A stretch of DNA of 30,979 nucleotides from a virus. Both the position numbers and the translations under genes were made by a program. The notes under the pieces were generated by a model. The model was not told where the DNA came from. It saw only the letters and a program-made list of their open reading frames with translations, and did no database searches. The DNA is taken from the IMG/VR virus record IMGVR_UViG_3300013120_000616, positions 1-30,979 of that record; one strand, 5' to 3'. Shown here one piece after another: positions 1 through 6,114 of the stretch; the first letter of the stretch is position 1; every line of letters starts with the position of its first letter.

Positions 1-183
1 CTCCAGTGGAACGGCGCGTGGTTCGTTGAACTTCTTAATGAGTGGCTGAGCCAGGAGCTTACTATCCAGGACTTGGAGCGCCGGCTGAGAAATCAGCGCA
101 TGACGATAGACAACATGGAAGGTGAGTTGGCGCAGTACCGGGCAGGAGAGGAGAGGCCCGATGGCGAAGAAGGCAAAGACTGA
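1..183 (+). CDS. C-terminal part of an unidentified phage protein (5' end outside window)
   Basis: An open frame runs from the first base to a TGA at 181-183, giving 60 residues. The visible part starts with an aromatic and acidic segment (QWNGAWFVELLNEW), continues with a likely amphipathic helix around LEERRLR-type residues, and ends in a strongly acidic tail (GEEGKD). No family is recognised. Its last 23 bases overlap the start of the next gene, the usual tight spacing of this operon. The gene is incomplete, so neither its length nor its start can be judged. Confidence 0.55.
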   Translation, partial: LQWNGAWFVELLNEWLSQELTIQDLERRLRNQRMTIDNMEGELAQYRAGEERPDGEEGKD

Positions 184-370
184 CAAACCGGAACCGGTGA
201 ACTGCGCGTGCGGGAAGCGTACCACACCAGGCAACTATACTTGGAATAACGATCAGTACGCAATTGCTTGTCGCAATCGTTCTTGTTGGTTCGGTCCATA
301 TCGCAAGACCCGACGTGGCGCCGTCAATGCCTGGAACAGGGTGATGGAGAAGGTGTATGCGAAGGTATGA
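161..370 (+). CDS. Lar-like restriction-alleviation / zinc-finger protein
   Basis: A 69-residue basic protein. The ATG at 161 is preferred over upstream starts because a purine-rich GGAGAGGAGAGG ribosome site lies just upstream. The sequence shows a CxC pair (CACGK), a second pair C-x4-C (CRNRSCW), and a C-terminal NAWNRVMEKV block. This matches the layout of Lar-family (restriction alleviation) phage proteins: a small zinc ribbon followed by an A-x-x-x-W-N-R motif. Rac-prophage Lar modulates host type I restriction; that role here is inference from the family and from its place next to DNA-processing genes. It overlaps both neighbours. Confidence 0.6.
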   Translation: MAKKAKTDKPEPVNCACGKRTTPGNYTWNNDQYAIACRNRSCWFGPYRKTRRGAVNAWNRVMEKVYAKV

Positions 371-728
371 GCTTCCATATCCGCCGAGCATCAACACCTA
401 CTGGCGTCACAACCGGGGTCGCACGCACATCAGCACGAAGGGTCGGGCGTATCGGGAGGCCGTGATCTCCGTGGTAGACGAAGCTGTCGTGTCGTTCATC
501 GACCCTATTGAGGTCAGCGTCGAGGTGTTCCCGCCGGACCGCCGCAAGCGTGACCTTGACAACGTGCTCAAGGCGTTGCTGGACGCGCTTCAGCATGCGG
601 GAGTCTATGCGGACGACGCTCAGATTGACCGTCTCGTAGTGGTGCGGCGGCACCTTGTGAAGGGCGGGAAGGTAATCGTGCGCATCTGGGCCATGATGGA
701 ACAGAGTAAGGGGGCGGCTGATGCCTGA
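357..728 (+). CDS. rusA: RusA-type Holliday junction resolvase
   Basis: 123 residues, the usual size for RusA. The N-terminal PPSINTYWR motif and the block RKRDLDNVLKALLDAL followed by GVYADDAQID are the family signature; the aspartates in DLDN and DDAQI correspond to the metal-binding active site. RusA is a dimeric endonuclease that cuts four-way DNA junctions, in phages probably clearing branched replication intermediates before packaging. The ATG at 357 overlaps the preceding gene by 14 bases, and the stop overlaps the next gene by 8, so translation is probably coupled. The position ahead of the packaging genes is common for lambdoid rusA. Confidence 0.92.
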   Translation: MRRYELPYPPSINTYWRHNRGRTHISTKGRAYREAVISVVDEAVVSFIDPIEVSVEVFPPDRRKRDLDNVLKALLDALQHAGVYADDAQIDRLVVVRRHLVKGGKVIVRIWAMMEQSKGAADA

Positions 729-972
729 CCCGTCTCACGAGCACTACACATTTCTGCTGTTCTGGAGTGACGAGGACGATTGCTACGTTGCCAAGTTGCC
801 GGAGTTCGGTGCAGCTGCTTTCGGTGACACGCCGGAAGAGGCGTTGCGGGAGGCGCAGGATGCGCTCGCTGGATGTATCGAGGTCTATCGGGAGAGCGGG
901 CAACCCCTGCCGCGCGTTCGCAGTTGGATGCTGACGGAGATCGAGCCGGGGGGCGTGGTGCACTGTGACTGA
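721..972 (+). CDS. HicB-family antitoxin-like protein (orphan)
   Basis: 83 residues with the HicB N-terminal layout: a strand-rich start (YTFLLFWSDEDDCYVAKLPEF), then FGDTPEEALREAQDAL, then an IEVYRESGQPLP segment. HicB proteins adopt a partial RNase-H fold and neutralise the mRNA-cleaving HicA toxin. No HicA-type gene is visible on either side, so this is an orphan. Full HicB proteins often carry a C-terminal DNA-binding domain; here the frame stops and an XRE helix-turn-helix gene starts 8 bases earlier, as if the two domains were encoded separately. AAGGGGG precedes the ATG. Whether it blocks a host HicA is speculation. Confidence 0.75.
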   Translation: MPDPSHEHYTFLLFWSDEDDCYVAKLPEFGAAAFGDTPEEALREAQDALAGCIEVYRESGQPLPRVRSWMLTEIEPGGVVHCD

Positions 973-1231
973 GAGGCCAAATACAGTATTCGGGCAACGG
1001 CTGAAGGCTGCGCGCAGGAAGGCGGGCCTGAGCCAGGCGGCGCTGGGGATGCGGCTCGGGGTATCCAGACATGCTGTCCGGCAGTATGAACGCGGCCGGG
1101 GGGTGCCGGGGTCCCAGGTGTTGCTGGACATGGCACGGGTGCTGGGTGTGGCTGTCGACTACTTTCTTCGGCCGGATCCGCTGCCCAGAATGGACCGCGT
1201 GCACTGGACCACCTCCATGGGGCCGAAGTAG
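965..1231 (+). CDS. XRE/Cro-type helix-turn-helix regulator
   Basis: 88 residues from a GTG at 965, overlapping the preceding stop. Residues about 9-65 form a standard XRE domain: FGQRLKAARRKAGLSQAAL, MRLGVSRHAVRQYERG (recognition helix), then LDMARVLGVAVDYFL. The short C-terminal tail has no known domain. It probably binds DNA as a dimer. Given its overlap with the HicB-like gene, it may serve as that protein's DNA-binding partner or control this operon. No obvious operator is visible nearby. Confidence 0.85.
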   Translation: MTERPNTVFGQRLKAARRKAGLSQAALGMRLGVSRHAVRQYERGRGVPGSQVLLDMARVLGVAVDYFLRPDPLPRMDRVHWTTSMGPK

Positions 1232-1252
1232 CGGAACAGAACAGGGATTGAA

Positions 1253-2170
1253 ATGTGGCTGCACATGCCATCACACATCTTAGCCTCTGCGCCGGGGCAG
1301 GCGGTCTTGACCTCGGACTCAGACTCGTCCTCGGAGACGTCCTGCGCACTGTGTGTTACGTCGAGCGGGAAGCCTACGCAGCGGCTACTCTCGTGGCGCG
1401 GATGGAAGACGAGGCCCTGGATCAAGCGCCTGTGTGGAACGATCTCAAGACCTTCGACGGCGGCGCGTGGCGTGGCTGCGTGGACATCATCTCTGCGGGC
1501 TACCCGTGCCAGCCGTGGAGCGTTGCGGGTCGGCAGCTTGGCGAGTCTGATGAGCGCGACCTTTGGCCCGACGTGGCGAGAGTCATTGACGAGTCGCGGC
1601 CTGCCTTCGTTTTCCTGGAGAACGTGCCAGGGGTTGCTGCTGTCTTTGCCGAGAGGGAAAGACCCGAACTCGAAGCGATGGGCTACGTGGTTGCGGCAAG
1701 ACTATTCAGCGCGGGAGAAGTCGGCGCAAGCCAGCGGCGGCTTAGGTTTTTCGCGCTGGCCCACTATGCGCGTAGTCGCCAGCAGAGATGTGTGCAGAGA
1801 CCGAGGGAAGGGGAACCTAGGCGAAGTGGCGGCGATGTGGCCCGCTGCCAAAGCTACTCAAGCAGGTTCGTTGAACAGGAGCAGCAGCGGTGGCCCGCCT
1901 CAAGACCTCGCTCTAACTGCGAAGGGGTGGCAAACACCATCGGCTGCGGATGTGTTGGGCGGGCACAAGACAAGAGGGGGCAAACGAAGGGGGGAGGCTC
2001 TGTTGAAGGGCCAAGCCTCCCGCTTTTTCCGCCCAGCCCCGGATACACAGACGCCTGGGCAAGAGTCCTTGAAACCGGCCCGGCGCTTGAACCCGCTGTT
2101 TGTGGAGTGGCTGATGGGGTGGCCCCTATCTTGGACGCAGATTCCTTCAGTGTGTGGCAAAGGAGAATGA
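1253..2170 (+). CDS. Overprinted ORF in an alternative frame of the methyltransferase gene
   Basis: A 305-residue frame that begins at an ATG two bases before the methylase GTG and runs unbroken for 918 bases inside it. Its second half does not look random: WRTCQGLLLSL, YSAREKSAQ, FSRWPT, WQTPSAAD and, near the end, RLNPLFVEWLMGWPLSWT. From memory, such WPTP/NP-VEWLMG-P-WT strings recur in phage methylase loci. Hand count of third-position G/C over 1861-1980 is 25/40 in this frame against 27/40 in the methylase frame, so composition does not decide. The stop lies between the ribosome site and ATG of the next nested gene, suggesting coupling. It could still be a passive shadow. Confidence 0.42.
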   Translation: MWLHMPSHILASAPGQAVLTSDSDSSSETSCALCVTSSGKPTQRLLSWRGWKTRPWIKRLCGTISRPSTAARGVAAWTSSLRATRASRGALRVGSLASLMSATFGPTWRESLTSRGLPSFSWRTCQGLLLSLPRGKDPNSKRWATWLRQDYSAREKSAQASGGLGFSRWPTMRVVASRDVCRDRGKGNLGEVAAMWPAAKATQAGSLNRSSSGGPPQDLALTAKGWQTPSAADVLGGHKTRGGKRRGEALLKGQASRFFRPAPDTQTPGQESLKPARRLNPLFVEWLMGWPLSWTQIPSVCGKGE

Positions 2171-2616
2171 GAAATGCCTTGTACTGGCTTATCAATAATG
2201 GCAAGCATCCGCAAGCGCGCACAGAGAGCGGTATCACTTCAGGGGGCAACTTGTATGCAGTGCGGCAGCACAGAGAGACTACGACGACACCACCCAGATT
2301 ATGCCTGCCCAATAGATGTGGAGATTCTCTGCGAACCGTGCCATGTCAAGGTGGAGATGAAACGGAACCATTGGGGCGGCGGGAAAGTGGAGATGGCGAC
2401 ATGCCAGATATGCCACAAGTCCTTTCAGCCGAAGCGAACCCGACGCAACCGGCTGTGCGGGAATCCTGTGTGTCTGCAAGAAATGGGGCGGAGGGCGGCA
2501 TACAGACGATGGAGAACAGAGTAGACCGACTGCGGCTCTGCGGTAACGGGGTGGTCCCGCTGGCAGCGGCGTATGCGTTCTGCACTCTGCTGGCTGATCT
2601 CACGAGAGAGCAATGA
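1255..2616 (+). CDS. DNA (cytosine-5-)-methyltransferase with an internal ~390-bp insertion
   Basis: 453 residues from a GTG at 1255. Visible C5-methylase motifs: I LCAGAGGLDLG (residues ~11-21, SAM binding), IV with PCQ (84-86; C85 the catalytic cysteine), VI LENVPG (121-126), VIII SQRRLR (159-164), and X LCGNGVVPLAAAYAF near residue 428. It transfers a methyl group to cytosine C5, probably to shield phage DNA. The segment FPPSPGY..W..VLETGPALEPAVCGVADGVA and the following RVDRLRLCGNGVVP are expected to be adjacent; here 390 bases (2125-2514) with a separate gene in another frame lie between them, yet the frame stays open. Two ORFs in the +2 frame are nested inside. Activity with this insertion is uncertain. 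Confidence 0.88.
   Translation: MAAHAITHLSLCAGAGGLDLGLRLVLGDVLRTVCYVEREAYAAATLVARMEDEALDQAPVWNDLKTFDGGAWRGCVDIISAGYPCQPWSVAGRQLGESDERDLWPDVARVIDESRPAFVFLENVPGVAAVFAERERPELEAMGYVVAARLFSAGEVGASQRRLRFFALAHYARSRQQRCVQRPREGEPRRSGGDVARCQSYSSRFVEQEQQRWPASRPRSNCEGVANTIGCGCVGRAQDKRGQTKGGGSVEGPSLPLFPPSPGYTDAWARVLETGPALEPAVCGVADGVAPILDADSFSVWQRRMRNALYWLINNGKHPQARTESGITSGGNLYAVRQHRETTTTPPRLCLPNRCGDSLRTVPCQGGDETEPLGRRESGDGDMPDMPQVLSAEANPTQPAVRESCVSARNGAEGGIQTMENRVDRLRLCGNGVVPLAAAYAFCTLLADLTREQ
2174..2524 (+). CDS. HNH-like zinc-binding protein nested in the methyltransferase gene
   Basis: 116 residues in the +2 frame of the methylase gene. The ATG at 2174 has a strong AAAGGAG site eight bases upstream (2159-2165). 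The core CMQCGSTERLRRHHPDY, followed by ILCEPCHVKVE, is the compact HNH-like zinc fold seen in many small phage proteins (CxxC, HH-P-D-Y, CxxCH). A second CxxC zinc finger (TCQICHKSF, then LCGNPVC) and a basic tail follow. Whether it cuts DNA is unknown: a typical HNH nuclease has further catalytic residues that are not clear here. It ends ten bases into the resumed methylase-conserved region. Confidence 0.7.
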   Translation: MPCTGLSIMASIRKRAQRAVSLQGATCMQCGSTERLRRHHPDYACPIDVEILCEPCHVKVEMKRNHWGGGKVEMATCQICHKSFQPKRTRRNRLCGNPVCLQEMGRRAAYRRWRTE

Positions 2617-2798
2617 CTGAGCCACGCATCTACCGGGGCTGGAAGGAGATCGCGGCGCGGCTGCGGGTCGGCGTGCGGACGGCGCGGCGGTGGGAGCAGG
2701 AACACGGTCTGCCCGTGCGGCGCGGGCCGGGAATCTACGTTCTTGAAAAGGAGCTTGAACGGTGGCTAAAGAAGCAAATGAGAAGACAAGGCCGCTAA
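2613..2798 (+). CDS. Small helix-turn-helix DNA-binding protein
   Basis: 61 residues; ATG overlaps the methylase stop as ATGA. The whole protein is one MerR/excisionase-like winged helix: YRGWKEIAARLRVGVRTARRWEQEHGLPVRR, then YVLEKELERWLKKQ. The helix pair AARLRVGVRTARRWE is the likely DNA-reading element, and the GLPVRRGPGIYV strand pair the wing. Possible roles are local regulator or recombination directionality factor; it sits far from the integrase, so a regulator is more likely. Very basic throughout. Confidence 0.75.
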   Translation: MTEPRIYRGWKEIAARLRVGVRTARRWEQEHGLPVRRGPGIYVLEKELERWLKKQMRRQGR

Positions 2799-3034
2799 CT
2801 TGGCAAGAGAGATATGCGAAAGAGCACAACTGTACGGAAGAAGAGGCGCTAGCTTTTTCCAGAGCGGAAGCGAGGAGTTGGTGTGATACGGGTGAGCAAG
2901 ACGGTGTGGACTGGCTCGTGGCGGCGCAGCGCCAGTTCATCGAGTTGCTGCTGAAGTTCTGTGAGATGATGGCGGGAACACCCAAGAAGCTTGTGCTTCA
3001 CACCGCTGATAGCAGGTACGAAAGCGAGTTATAG
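2762..3034 (+). CDS. Hypothetical protein, unrecognised
   Basis: 90 residues from a GTG at 2762, overlapping the preceding gene by 37 bases. The sequence is mostly helical in character, with an acidic stretch (KEHNCTEEEALAF), aromatic helix (DWLVAAQRQFIELLLKFCEMM) and a polar tail. No family or motif is recognised. No other in-frame ATG lies near the N terminus, so the long overlap is hard to avoid. It is the last gene before the non-coding stretch that separates the early operon from the packaging genes. Confidence 0.55.
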   Translation: MAKEANEKTRPLTWQERYAKEHNCTEEEALAFSRAEARSWCDTGEQDGVDWLVAAQRQFIELLLKFCEMMAGTPKKLVLHTADSRYESEL

Positions 3035-3051
3035 CGCCAAGAAAAAGCGGA

Positions 3052-3106
3052 CATTTGCGGCCAAATGCGGCCAAATTGGGCCATCCGCCGGATTTGCGGT
3101 CCATAT
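3052..3106 (+). repeat. Iteron-like repeats upstream of the packaging genes
   Basis: The decamer GCGGCCAAAT occurs twice head-to-tail (3057-3066, 3067-3076). The longer units ATTTGCGGCCAAAT (3052-3065) and ATTTGCGGTCCATAT (3092-3106) are near copies of each other. The stretch sits in the only clear intergenic gap before the sigma-like and terminase genes. Repeats here could be terminase-binding or protein-binding sites; function is inferred from position only. Confidence 0.6.
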
Positions 3107-3117
3107 CCGGCGGTTTT
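3085..3117 (+). terminator. Rho-independent terminator-like hairpin
   Basis: A perfect 9-bp inverted repeat, CCGCCGGAT (3085-3093) and ATCCGGCGG (3105-3113), encloses an 11-base loop and is followed by TTTT (3114-3117). It lies 51 bases after the last gene of the early operon and 35 bases before the sigma-like gene, so it would separate early from late transcripts. The T-run is short, so termination may be partial. Confidence 0.6.
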
Positions 3118-3151
3118 GCACTCTATATGGGTAGAGGGACGGCAGGCAGCA

Positions 3152-3517
3152 ATGGATATTCAGGCGATTGCCGGGCATACGGTGGGTCTTCTGCGGGGCA
3201 TCGAATCCCACGACCTCGAGGACCTCGAGCAGGACATCACGTTGTGCCTGATCGAGCAGGAAGAGGCGATCGGCGCGGCCGATAACCCGGAGGCGTATGC
3301 CCACCAGGTCGCGCACAACCGAATGCTTCGGTGGTTCAACGAGCGTGAGAAGACCGTAATCGGTGTGTTCAGCACGCAGTTCGTGGAGGGGCAGGAGGCC
3401 GCCACGCCGACGCCGCTGGACGTGCTGATTGCGGACGAGGAGCTGGGGCGGGTGGGTCTGTCCCCTGGTCTGCTCGATGGCGGGCCGCGAGAGACCAAGG
3501 AGTGCGAGGGTGCGTGA
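3152..3517 (+). CDS. Sigma-70 region-2-like protein lacking region 4
   Basis: 121 residues from the ATG at 3152; frames further upstream would run into the hairpin. Residues ~18-75 (HDLEDLEQDITLCLIEQEEAI, NPEAYAHQVAHNRMLRWFNE) resemble sigma-70 region 2: the DLEDL-Q-I helix and the Y-x-x-x-x-A-x-N-x-x-L-x-W-F helix used for core RNA polymerase and -10 contact. After PLDVLIADEELGRV, where a short linker and the region-4 helix-turn-helix would be expected, the protein ends in a Gly/Pro-rich tail. It may be a degenerate sigma factor or late-gene regulator. Its stop overlaps the terminase small subunit start. Confidence 0.5.
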   Translation: MDIQAIAGHTVGLLRGIESHDLEDLEQDITLCLIEQEEAIGAADNPEAYAHQVAHNRMLRWFNEREKTVIGVFSTQFVEGQEAATPTPLDVLIADEELGRVGLSPGLLDGGPRETKECEGA

Positions 3518-4266
3518 ACAAGCGCTCGGCGGTGACACTCAGGCAGCTTGCGGAGCATTACGGCGTTGCGCTGCGCACGACGCAGCAGTGGCGCGAGCGG
3601 GGGATGCCGGCGAGACGCAAGAAAGGCCCGCACGGGGCGCTCCTCTACACCCTCGGCAAGGCAGACCAGTGGCTTGCGGCGCACGGGATTGTGCCTGGAA
3701 CGCACGGCAAGGAGGGGGGCCGGGCCCGCCGGGCAAGTAGGCCCCATGGGACCTATGGGGCGAATGGGGCGAATAGGGCGAAAGAGGACAACTCCTCCGA
3801 GGTCCCACTTTCTGAGCCGGACGGTGAAGAGGGGCTCGAGGCGACGGTTGGCCGGCTGAAGCGGATGGAGCGGATGCTGGGCGGGGCGCTGGTCGCCGAG
3901 ATGGCCGGGGCGGGGTCCGGTCCGGTCGAGAGACAGGGCAAGATTCGGAACTATCAGCTGATTGCCGACCAGCTTCGCAAGACGACGGCGGGGCTGCTGG
4001 ACCTGGAGGTGATGCGCGGTCGGCTGGTGCCGAGGGACGACCTGCGGGACACGGTGACGCATCTGGCGGCGATTCTTCGGTCGAGTGTAGAGCGGTTTGC
4101 GGACGACGTGCCGCCGAGGATCGTCTCGGCGCTGGGTCAGGTGGGCATTGAGGTGGGTGACATTGCGGGGTTCCAGCGGGCGCTTCACGACCAGGCGCAG
4201 AAGCTGGCGGACGAATGGCTGCGGCGGCTCAGCGACGAGGTGAGACAGGCCGGGAATGGGGGCTGA
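3514..4266 (+). CDS. Terminase small subunit-like protein (TerS, DNA recognition)
   Basis: 250 residues. The GTG at 3514 overlaps the previous stop (GTGA) and has AAGGAG eleven bases upstream, so it is preferred over a GTG at 3502. The N terminus is a Nu1-like winged helix (TLRQLAEHYGVALRTTQQWRERGMP, then GKADQWLAAHG), followed by a low-complexity linker built from a 9-bp DNA repeat, and a helical region (ATVGRLKRMERMLGG, YQLIADQLRKTTAGLLDLE) typical of small-subunit oligomerisation. TerS rings bind the packaging site and control the large subunit. Position directly before TerL supports the call. Confidence 0.8.
   Translation: MNKRSAVTLRQLAEHYGVALRTTQQWRERGMPARRKKGPHGALLYTLGKADQWLAAHGIVPGTHGKEGGRARRASRPHGTYGANGANRAKEDNSSEVPLSEPDGEEGLEATVGRLKRMERMLGGALVAEMAGAGSGPVERQGKIRNYQLIADQLRKTTAGLLDLEVMRGRLVPRDDLRDTVTHLAAILRSSVERFADDVPPRIVSALGQVGIEVGDIAGFQRALHDQAQKLADEWLRRLSDEVRQAGNGG
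3757..3783 (+). repeat. Three tandem 9-bp units inside the TerS linker
   Basis: GGGGCGAAT, GGGGCGAAT, AGGGCGAAA follow each other without gaps. The unit is three codons long, so copy changes keep frame and only alter the length of a Gly-Ala-Asn linker between the DNA-binding domain and the oligomerisation region. Confidence 0.7.
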
Positions 4267-6114
4267 GTGCCGATAGTCACTGACGCGGCGATCTGGGCTG
4301 GGACGGCGGACGCGCTGGCGCCGCCGGAGCGGCTTCGGCCCTCAGAGTGGGCCGAGAAATACCGCGAGCTGAAAGAGGGGACGACCGATCAGCCGGGCCG
4401 GTGGAGCAACAGCTACTTCCCGTGGCTTGCCCCCATTATGGACGCCCGGGTGGACTTCCCCCACAAGAAGGGACAGATATTCCAGAAGTGCGGCCAGATC
4501 GGGGGCAGCGAGCGGGCGGTGAACAACGTCGGTTGGTCGGTCTGCACCCGGCCCGGGCCGATGCTGTTTCTCACCACGACGGACAACCAGGCGAAGGAGT
4601 TCAGCCGGGACCGGTTCGACTACATGATCGAGTCGGCGCCGATCCTGAAGACGCGGCAGCTCACGGGGCCGAAGAACCGGGACACCGTGCACGTGAAGCG
4701 GTTTGCGGGGGCGAAGCTGGCCATATGCGGCAGCGGATCCCCGTCGAAGCTGATGAGCGAGCCGTATCAGGTGGTCTACCTGGACGAGGTGGACCAGCTT
4801 CCGATCTTCCCGCGGGTGGGTTCCGCTTGGAAGCTGGCGGAGATACGGATGCGGACCTTCCGGCGGAGCTGGCTGGACGCCTGGTCGACGTCGACCTACG
4901 AGGACCGGGGCATTGCGAAACAATACAAGGAGTTGAGCGACCAGCGGCGGTTCTTCGTGGCGTGTCCGCACTGCGGCACGTGGGATTGGCTGAAGTTCGG
5001 GCAGGTGCGCATCGAGGAACGGAAGGCGGCAACGGCGAAGTACATCTGCGAGCACTGCGAGGAAGAGATCTCGGACATACAGCGGGCGGCCGCCGTGTAT
5101 GGGGGCGAGTATCGGTCGACGCTGCCCGAGAAGCAGGCTGCGGAACGGAGTTTCGTGGGGTTTCAGATCGGGCGGCAGTACGACCCGTACCTGCCGCTGA
5201 TCGACCTGGCGGGGGCATACGTGAGCTGCCGGACGGAGGCGGAGCTGCAGGTGTTTCACAATGCGGACCTCGGCGAGCCGTTTTCTCCGTCCTCGACACC
5301 GGTAGGCGTGGCGGACCTCGACGCGCGGCAGATGCGAACGCCGAACGAGCCTGCGCCGGCGGACACACAGTTCATCACGGCCGGGATCGACGTGCAGAGC
5401 AAGTTGACTTTCTACTTCGACGTGTCGGCGTGGACGAGCGACGGGCTCAAGCACCTGCTTCAGTATGGGCGGGTTCAGGGGTGGGAGCGCCTGCGGACGT
5501 TTCTTCGGGGCTTCGAGATCGACAAGCAGGGGGCGCAGGACCGACTTGGCATCCGGCTGGCAGCGGTAGATGCCGGGTACGAGACGACCCAGGTCTACAA
5601 CTTCTGCATGGCGGTTGGCGTGAACTTCGTCATCCCGGTCAAGTACGGTCCGTCGGGGCATGCGGCGCACTGGCGGCTGGTGAAGGTGGCAACCGCACGG
5701 AACATCGGTTGTTGCATGTTGGATCGCGGCTACTGGATGGACCGGGCGATGGGCCGGTTCGGGGGCGGCGACGAGCTGGCGGGCGTAGTGACGCCGATGC
5801 TGTCGGACGAGTATCGGGCGCACGTGCTGTCGCCGAAGCGCGAGGTGATCATCAACCCGCGCGGTGGCTACGAGAAGGTGGTGTGGACCAAGGACAGCGG
5901 GCTGCACGATGATTACTTGCAGGCGGCGGTCTATGCGGAGTTCGCGGCGATGCGGTGCGGGCTCGACCGGTTGCAGCGTGAGGGCGAGGCGTTCAAGCAG
6001 GCCCGCAAGGCGCTCAGGGTGAAGAACGAGGAGATAGAGCAGGGATGGGTCAGCCGGGGCTACAGGAAGACGAGGGGGACGTGGCTGGGCAGGCCGAAGG
6101 GGAAGAGGTCGTGA
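4267..6114 (+). CDS. Terminase large subunit, GpA family (TerL)
   Basis: 615 residues from a GTG directly after the TerS stop. ATPase part: the GpA-type P-loop region FQKCGQIGGSERAVNNVGW (residues ~72-90) and Walker B VVYLDEVDQLP (~169-179). A zinc ribbon follows (CPHC at ~233, CEHC at ~261), as in lambda gpA. Nuclease part: GIDVQ near 370, a VDAGYE block near 430 and HDDYLQAAVYA near 560, the acidic residues expected for the RNase-H-like endonuclease. It cuts concatemeric DNA and drives it into the prohead through the portal. GpA-family packaging usually implies cos cleavage. Size and order are standard. Confidence 0.95.
   Translation: MPIVTDAAIWAGTADALAPPERLRPSEWAEKYRELKEGTTDQPGRWSNSYFPWLAPIMDARVDFPHKKGQIFQKCGQIGGSERAVNNVGWSVCTRPGPMLFLTTTDNQAKEFSRDRFDYMIESAPILKTRQLTGPKNRDTVHVKRFAGAKLAICGSGSPSKLMSEPYQVVYLDEVDQLPIFPRVGSAWKLAEIRMRTFRRSWLDAWSTSTYEDRGIAKQYKELSDQRRFFVACPHCGTWDWLKFGQVRIEERKAATAKYICEHCEEEISDIQRAAAVYGGEYRSTLPEKQAAERSFVGFQIGRQYDPYLPLIDLAGAYVSCRTEAELQVFHNADLGEPFSPSSTPVGVADLDARQMRTPNEPAPADTQFITAGIDVQSKLTFYFDVSAWTSDGLKHLLQYGRVQGWERLRTFLRGFEIDKQGAQDRLGIRLAAVDAGYETTQVYNFCMAVGVNFVIPVKYGPSGHAAHWRLVKVATARNIGCCMLDRGYWMDRAMGRFGGGDELAGVVTPMLSDEYRAHVLSPKREVIINPRGGYEKVVWTKDSGLHDDYLQAAVYAEFAAMRCGLDRLQREGEAFKQARKALRVKNEEIEQGWVSRGYRKTRGTWLGRPKGKRS

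Follow-up and report, generated by a model that had tools for sequence, protein, structure and literature searches.

Outside small genomes, genes that overlap at length on one strand are regarded as rare, and annotation pipelines leave them out. The window analysed here, that is, the whole stretch of 30,979 nucleotides from the IMG/VR virus record IMGVR_UViG_3300013120_000616, contains a DNA methyltransferase gene which the initial annotation described as having two genes overprinted in its +2 frame. The question is whether the second frame encodes a protein at all and, if so, how that protein relates to the methylase with which it shares its DNA.

Organization of the locus

Two long open reading frames, referred to here as frame A and frame W, begin at overlapping start codons:

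1253..2170, plus strand: open reading frame W (+2 relative to A), ATG at 1253, TGA at 2170, 305 amino acids
1255..2616, plus strand: open reading frame A, GTG at 1255, stop at 2616, 453 amino acids
1253..1257, plus strand: overlapping starts ATGTG, with the W ATG at 1253 and the A GTG at 1255
1243..1247, plus strand: AGGGA, Shine-Dalgarno-like, common to both starts, read from the sequence

All coordinates of the initial annotation, together with the shared ATGTG start, proved correct on re-reading. The AGGGA is spaced 5 bases from the W ATG and 7 from the A GTG, and the paired starts, only 2 bases apart, will compete with each other. The N-terminal ~150 codons of W overlap motifs I-VIII of A. 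Each W codon starts at base 2 of an A codon, the wobble base of A is base 2 of W, and the wobble base of W is base 1 of A, so that the selected frame can be told apart by the position of substitutions.

The start of A lies at -4 (ATGxATG), +2 or +5 relative to that of W in most relatives, and W has a conserved N-terminus, M(T/A/S)WLYxPP or MSWLF, paired with the A start. A fitting W start (M(T/A/S)WLYxPP or a close variant) was found in 138 of the 158 loci of the first clade, the remaining 20 being lost to contig ends or missed by the pattern. In a second clade of 79 loci, found with the frame A protein of Salmonella phage S9-5, W starts four bases 3' of the A start, which is ATG or GTG, in 74 loci.

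Phage packaging genes lie close by in the window, with a terminase GpA gene at 4267-6114. Just upstream of the methylase are a RusA resolvase gene (357-728), a weak match to a HicB-like antitoxin (721-972) and an HTH repressor-like gene (965-1231).

Frame A and the catalytic domain

The predicted features of frame A are:

1255..2616, plus strand: C5-cytosine methyltransferase large (catalytic) domain, with motifs I-VIII and X and two linkers
2515..2580, plus strand: motif X, NRVDRLRLCGNGVVPLAAAYAF, in which GNGV is invariant in homologues

Judged by its motifs and profile matches, frame A is the large domain of a C5-cytosine methylase. It matches PF00145 (7e-30, residues 7-174) and phrog_363 (8.5e-49), and the PCQ (IV), ENV (VI) and RxR columns are invariant or almost so in 67 homologues. 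Its order is motifs I-VIII, a linker over the region in which W is selected, a linker over an HNH-like gene, and motif X. The methylase had been credited with all main motifs, which holds for I-VIII and X; the target-recognition domain and motif IX are absent from the frame A polypeptide, where the PF00145 match stops at residue 174, and are both in W. The AlphaFold model of A is confident at residues 1-175 and in the C-terminal motif X helices, with pLDDT below 50 over most of residues 177-250 and low confidence in the HNH-derived insert. A Foldseek search with this model retrieved M.HhaI and M.HaeIII at 1e-12 over ~170 residues.

Frame W, target recognition and motif IX

The features assigned to frame W are:

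1253..2170, plus strand: putative target-recognition region and motif IX, from the phrog_1008 match, homology and dN/dS
2087..2137, plus strand: motif IX, LNPLFVEWLMGWPLSWT

The W protein of the window matches phrog_1008 at 2e-16, and 71 of 73 W proteins scanned match phrog_1008, as 71 of 73 match phrog_27243; a Pfam search did not recognise W. In the single-ORF methylases L207 and L117, motifs I-VIII, LPTP repeats, LNPELTEWMMGWPAGWVT and CGNGVVPQQ all lie in one frame. In split methylases (L101, L096 and others), motif VIII is the last motif of ORF1, and the LPTP repeats, RLSSRFTEWMMGLPDGWIT and CGNGVVPQQ follow in ORF2, which is in the +1 frame. The W-type LNPxFVEWLMGWPxGWT and the LPTP repeats are in frame with motif X in both single-frame and split methylases. 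Because W aligns to ORF2 of the split methylases (hhalign 97.9%, 3e-13) and to the single-frame enzymes (96.9%, E 2e-10), it is assigned as target-recognition region plus motif IX. By this homology W is predicted to be the missing small domain of the same methylase, not an unrelated overprinted gene. The initial annotation was right that the RLNPLFVEWLMGWPLSWT and WPT strings of this frame are non-random; the former is motif IX of the methylase and the latter are the counterpart of the LPTP repeats of single-frame C5-methylases. Its picture of a methylase with two overprinted genes has to be given up, since homology to ORF2 and to the single-frame enzymes makes W the target-recognition and motif IX half that A lacks.

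The AlphaFold model of W alone is poor (pLDDT 59, pTM 0.27) and improves only toward motif IX. Foldseek of this model against PDB gave no match, and neither did a PDB search with the split-ORF2 profile. A match of the W profile to the MS2 coat protein in PDB (6e-4) was rejected as spurious; it covers 27 residues in the part of W opposite motifs I-VIII.

Openness of the two frames

In the window alone, W has no stops over motifs I-VIII against 1.8 expected (P 0.08), and A has none over the W-selected middle against 3.7 expected (P 0.008), a modest excess of openness. A first sample of 80 viral loci was fetched through W and is hence biased; all 80 carry frame A in the same relative register. 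Because of this bias, loci were resampled with motif X of frame A, written as a DNA pattern, as the sole criterion, which gave 73 loci with an A-family N-terminus, in 66 of which W motif IX was recognised by the pattern used. None of these 66 loci has a W stop between motifs I and IX. Over motifs I-VIII, 0 W stops are seen against 51.7 expected when the synonymous codons of A are shuffled, and W is open even at 46-48% GC (L138, L165, L195). Frame A is stop-free over its nearly neutral middle in 63 of the 66 loci. More distant C5-methylases caught by the motif X pattern have 6-14 W stops, as expected.

Among the 158 A-family matches at E<1e-30, 151 have a W that spans 85% or more of A; the other seven are three copies of the HNH-interrupted locus, three loci with the W start just inside the A match, and L192, in which the frame changes. 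The second clade has 77 W stops against 256 expected, about one per locus across its 79 loci, and in the cases inspected this stop is the TGA inside ATGAATG just 5' of the W start. A continuous A overlaps W by >600 nt in 79 of 80 relatives fetched from GTDB genomes, which are mostly from Rhodobacteraceae and other alphaproteobacteria. Across homologues the excess of openness is overwhelming: random breakage of the +2 frame in homologous methylases, named by the initial annotation as the sign of a shadow, is not what is found. Bias from W-based fetching was considered as an explanation and removed by resampling via A motif X and via the Salmonella phage A protein.

Selection along the gene

Substitution rates were estimated by an OLGenie-style count, whose dN/dS values are pairwise approximations from non-independent pairs. 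Between closely related pairs, the third position of A is fastest in motifs I-VIII and X; in the middle, the first position of A (the third of W) is fastest and the first two positions of W are conserved. In the first clade, dN/dS of A is 0.14 [0.10-0.20] in motifs I-VIII, 0.73 [0.59-0.90] in the middle and 0.12 in motif X, and that of W is 0.20 [0.15-0.24] in the middle, the target-recognition region, and 0.09 in motif IX. Over motifs I-VIII, W is under weak constraint (0.56 [0.41-0.75]), compared with 0.92 [0.66-1.29] in a control with a closed +1 frame. The second, independent clade gives 0.18, 0.84 and 0.36 for A in motifs I-VIII, middle and X, and 0.31 and 0.24 for W in the middle and motif IX. 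The selected frame switches along the gene, from A (motifs I-VIII) to W (target recognition and motif IX) and back to A (motif X). Dual coding of the methylase and the +2 frame, as first suggested for this window, is supported, with +2-frame sites under purifying selection in homologues.

An HNH-like insertion between motifs IX and X

Three further features lie at the 3' part of the locus:

2174..2524, plus strand: HNH-endonuclease-like open reading frame, 116 amino acids, between motifs IX and X and in the same frame as W
2149..2193, plus strand: W C-terminal tail, copy 1, SVWQRRMRNALYWLI, now in frame A and without the bases that coded for motif X
2555..2599, plus strand: W C-terminal tail, copy 2, SRWQRRMRSALCWLI, lying across from motif X and separated from W by the TAG that ends the HNH-like frame

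The HNH-like frame matches phrog_2340 (3e-8) and phrog_4234 (1.9e-6), with no Pfam HNH model above the cut-off. Its AAAGGAG site, at 2159-2165 and eight bases 5' of the ATG, was placed correctly in the initial annotation; its reading as a second overprinted gene does not stand, as it is a separate insertion outside the conserved arrangement. Across it A has 0 stops against 2.8 expected (P 0.03, in the window). Downstream of W motif IX, a degenerate copy of the motif X/W-tail region is followed by the HNH-like gene and by a second copy; there motif X is intact in A, and the TAG of the HNH-like gene closes the W frame. The nucleotide likeness of the copies is marginal (score 26, against 28 for the best of 200 shuffles), and the protein likeness of SVWQRRMRNALYWLI and SRWQRRMRSALCWLI appears to be the better evidence for duplication.

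The insertion spares motif IX in W and motif X in A. The HNH-like gene would have entered at the sole point where W has finished motif IX and A has not yet begun motif X. With the surrounding segment duplicated, W ends after copy 1 and A reads through the HNH-like gene to motif X in copy 2; since copy 1 is degenerate with its tail in frame A and motif X is intact in copy 2, W uses copy 1 and A uses copy 2. An intron or other structured RNA at the insertion was also considered and rejected, as Rfam gave no match at E up to 1 within positions 1-6000.

A two-polypeptide methylase and its alternatives

What the analysis shows is that both frames are open, how selection is distributed between them, and that W is homologous to the target-recognition region plus motif IX. 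We consider it probable that the locus encodes a two-polypeptide C5-cytosine DNA methyltransferase, in which A and W from the paired starts assemble into one enzyme. A and W would be translated separately from these starts, and the assembled enzyme would methylate phage DNA, presumably as protection against host restriction; translation of both frames, assembly, target sequence and biological role are what we infer from the observations above. Linkers that must stay open and have little sequence constraint of their own would make up the middle of A and, in W, the N-terminal half. The low confidence of the AlphaFold model of A where a target-recognition domain is expected supports such a split, as does the sparing of motif IX in W and motif X in A by the insertion.

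Counting against the two-polypeptide model are the poor AlphaFold model of W, the competition to be expected between starts 2 bases apart, the assignment of target recognition to the large subunit in M.EcoHK31I, and seven loci in which A is interrupted and W is open. Six of these loci are closed mid-gene (L106, L122, L034, L017, L075 and L195); the seventh, L076, is interrupted once, near motif III. Motif X remains in frame A in all seven but L195. L106, L122 and L034 have a common in-frame MGNA start-like stretch upstream of motif X. In L195 (1190-2700), motif VIII is the last motif of ORF1, and a single W ORF runs the whole length of the gene, with motifs IX and X both in it; its target-recognition region has 35% GC, and it is possibly an intermediate.

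A single polypeptide made by double programmed frameshifting, from A (motifs I-VIII) by +1 into W (target recognition and motif IX) and by -1 back to A (motif X), would follow the A-W-A course of selection and could read the five loci with A closed mid-gene and motif X in frame A. It is nevertheless unlikely, for it leaves unexplained the openness of W over motifs I-VIII, the conserved W start and N-terminus, and the stop-free A over the nearly neutral middle. Two polypeptides are preferred because the W N-terminus is conserved and W has no stops over motifs I-VIII.

It is slightly less probable still that W is a translated protein of independent function, for example in anti-restriction or as a cognate nuclease, overprinted on a complete methylase A. 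Purifying selection, a start of its own and the lack of Pfam recognition would all fit such a protein, but W is homologous to the C5-methylase target-recognition region and motif IX, and A lacks motif IX, shows no target-recognition domain modelled with confidence and evolves almost neutrally in that region. A shadow ORF, with W open because codon use is GC-rich and the methylase is conserved, would be allowed by the weak significance of W openness over motifs I-VIII in the window, but it is highly improbable. It is contradicted by the stops that codon-preserving shuffles predict and that are absent, by the low-GC homologues, by frame-specific rates in the middle opposite to those of a shadow, and by W being open where A is closed, unless some unrecognised constraint on the DNA or RNA gave rise to all of these signals.

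Extending the two-polypeptide model beyond this window, we regard it as fairly likely that a large class of C5-methylases of tailed phages, ranging from those of Rhodobacteraceae prophages to that of a P22-like Salmonella phage, are obligate heterodimers whose catalytic and target-recognition subunits lie on the same, almost coextensive DNA, with starts 2-5 bases apart. Most stretches would be selected mainly in one frame (A-W-A), and both would be fully translated. The ratio of the subunits may be set by the paired starts, and in some lineages motif X may come from frameshifting.

Comparison with known split methylases

C5-methylases consist of a large domain (motifs I-VIII and X) and a small domain (variable region and motif IX) (PMC3404938). 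M.EcoHK31I has two polypeptides, the large one with motifs I-VIII and X, to which the target-recognition domain is assigned, and the small one with motif IX; M.AquI is split inside the variable region, with motifs IX and X on the small subunit (PMC3404938). By this described motif division, the locus resembles M.EcoHK31I (YGGCCR), with I-VIII and X in A and a separate motif IX in W, which the starts and the openness suggest is a separately translated polypeptide. The gene for the small subunit of EcoHK31I reportedly overlaps that for the large subunit in another frame (Lee, Kam and Shaw, 1995). Unlike in M.EcoHK31I, selection and homology here place target recognition in W and not in the large subunit. 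M.EcoHK31I belongs to one restriction-modification system, whereas here W and A begin together and cover almost the same DNA, roughly 0.7-1.5 kb, in hundreds of phages and prophages.

M.AquI and the phage split methylases (L096, L101, L107 and others) likewise consist of two polypeptides, and in the latter the second ORF is in the +1 frame and carries an LPTP-type target-recognition region and motif IX, as in W. In contrast to the W/A pair, these split phage enzymes have motif X in the second ORF and an overlap of only about 200-320 nt. The libraries give phrog_1008 and phrog_27243 (W) and phrog_363 (A) as separate families, with no hint of shared DNA, and a search of the open-access literature found no dual-coded phage methylase.

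Other layouts were also seen. In the single-ORF methylases L098 and L141, the region between motifs VIII and IX reads as an A-like ADAD frame, not as LPTP, with IX and X in frame, possibly double coding of another layout. In the short methylases L088 and L093, motif X is preceded by a VAHGIPNR or VANGIPRR stretch; W is closed over motifs I-VIII in L088, yet the +1 frame there contains LNPNWVEWLMG, and a short separate motif IX ORF may exist in this type.

Distribution and significance

Relatives of W number 308 in GTDB genomes, and IMG/VR has at least 563 relatives of the frame A of the second clade. Opposite the methylase, isolated phages of Klebsiella, Acinetobacter, Salmonella, Vibrio and Paenibacillus also have an ORF in the +1 frame, as do Citrobacter and Klebsiella plasmids; the plasmid search used a hand-made W consensus as query, and only the existence of matches is drawn on. 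A W locus of Rhodobacteraceae type (L353) lies in a MAG labelled Exiguobacterium profundum, a label that may be wrong. These data suggest that the arrangement, of a kind known from M.EcoHK31I, is far commoner than that example suggests.

The records inspected list just one of the two frames, with W sometimes named a methyltransferase. In Synechococcus phage Ssp-JY39 (L002:2333-3448) the GenBank CDS is the W frame and the catalytic frame A is unannotated. Acidovorax phage Alfacinha3 (L003:2501-3667) has its W frame CDS named cytosine-specific methyltransferase, again with A unannotated, and PGAP gives one methylase CDS at the E. coli PT62 locus, a prophage in which, as in Salmonella phage S9-5, the arrangement is compact.

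The locus offers a clean case for the study of overlapping genes, because the coding load is split between the frames and the insertion in this window separates the two. Divergent dsDNA phages and prophages have kept an overlap of about 1 kb. If the two-polypeptide model is true, a phage cytosine methylase of this class cloned as A alone would lack activity or specificity, the latter residing in an unannotated protein.
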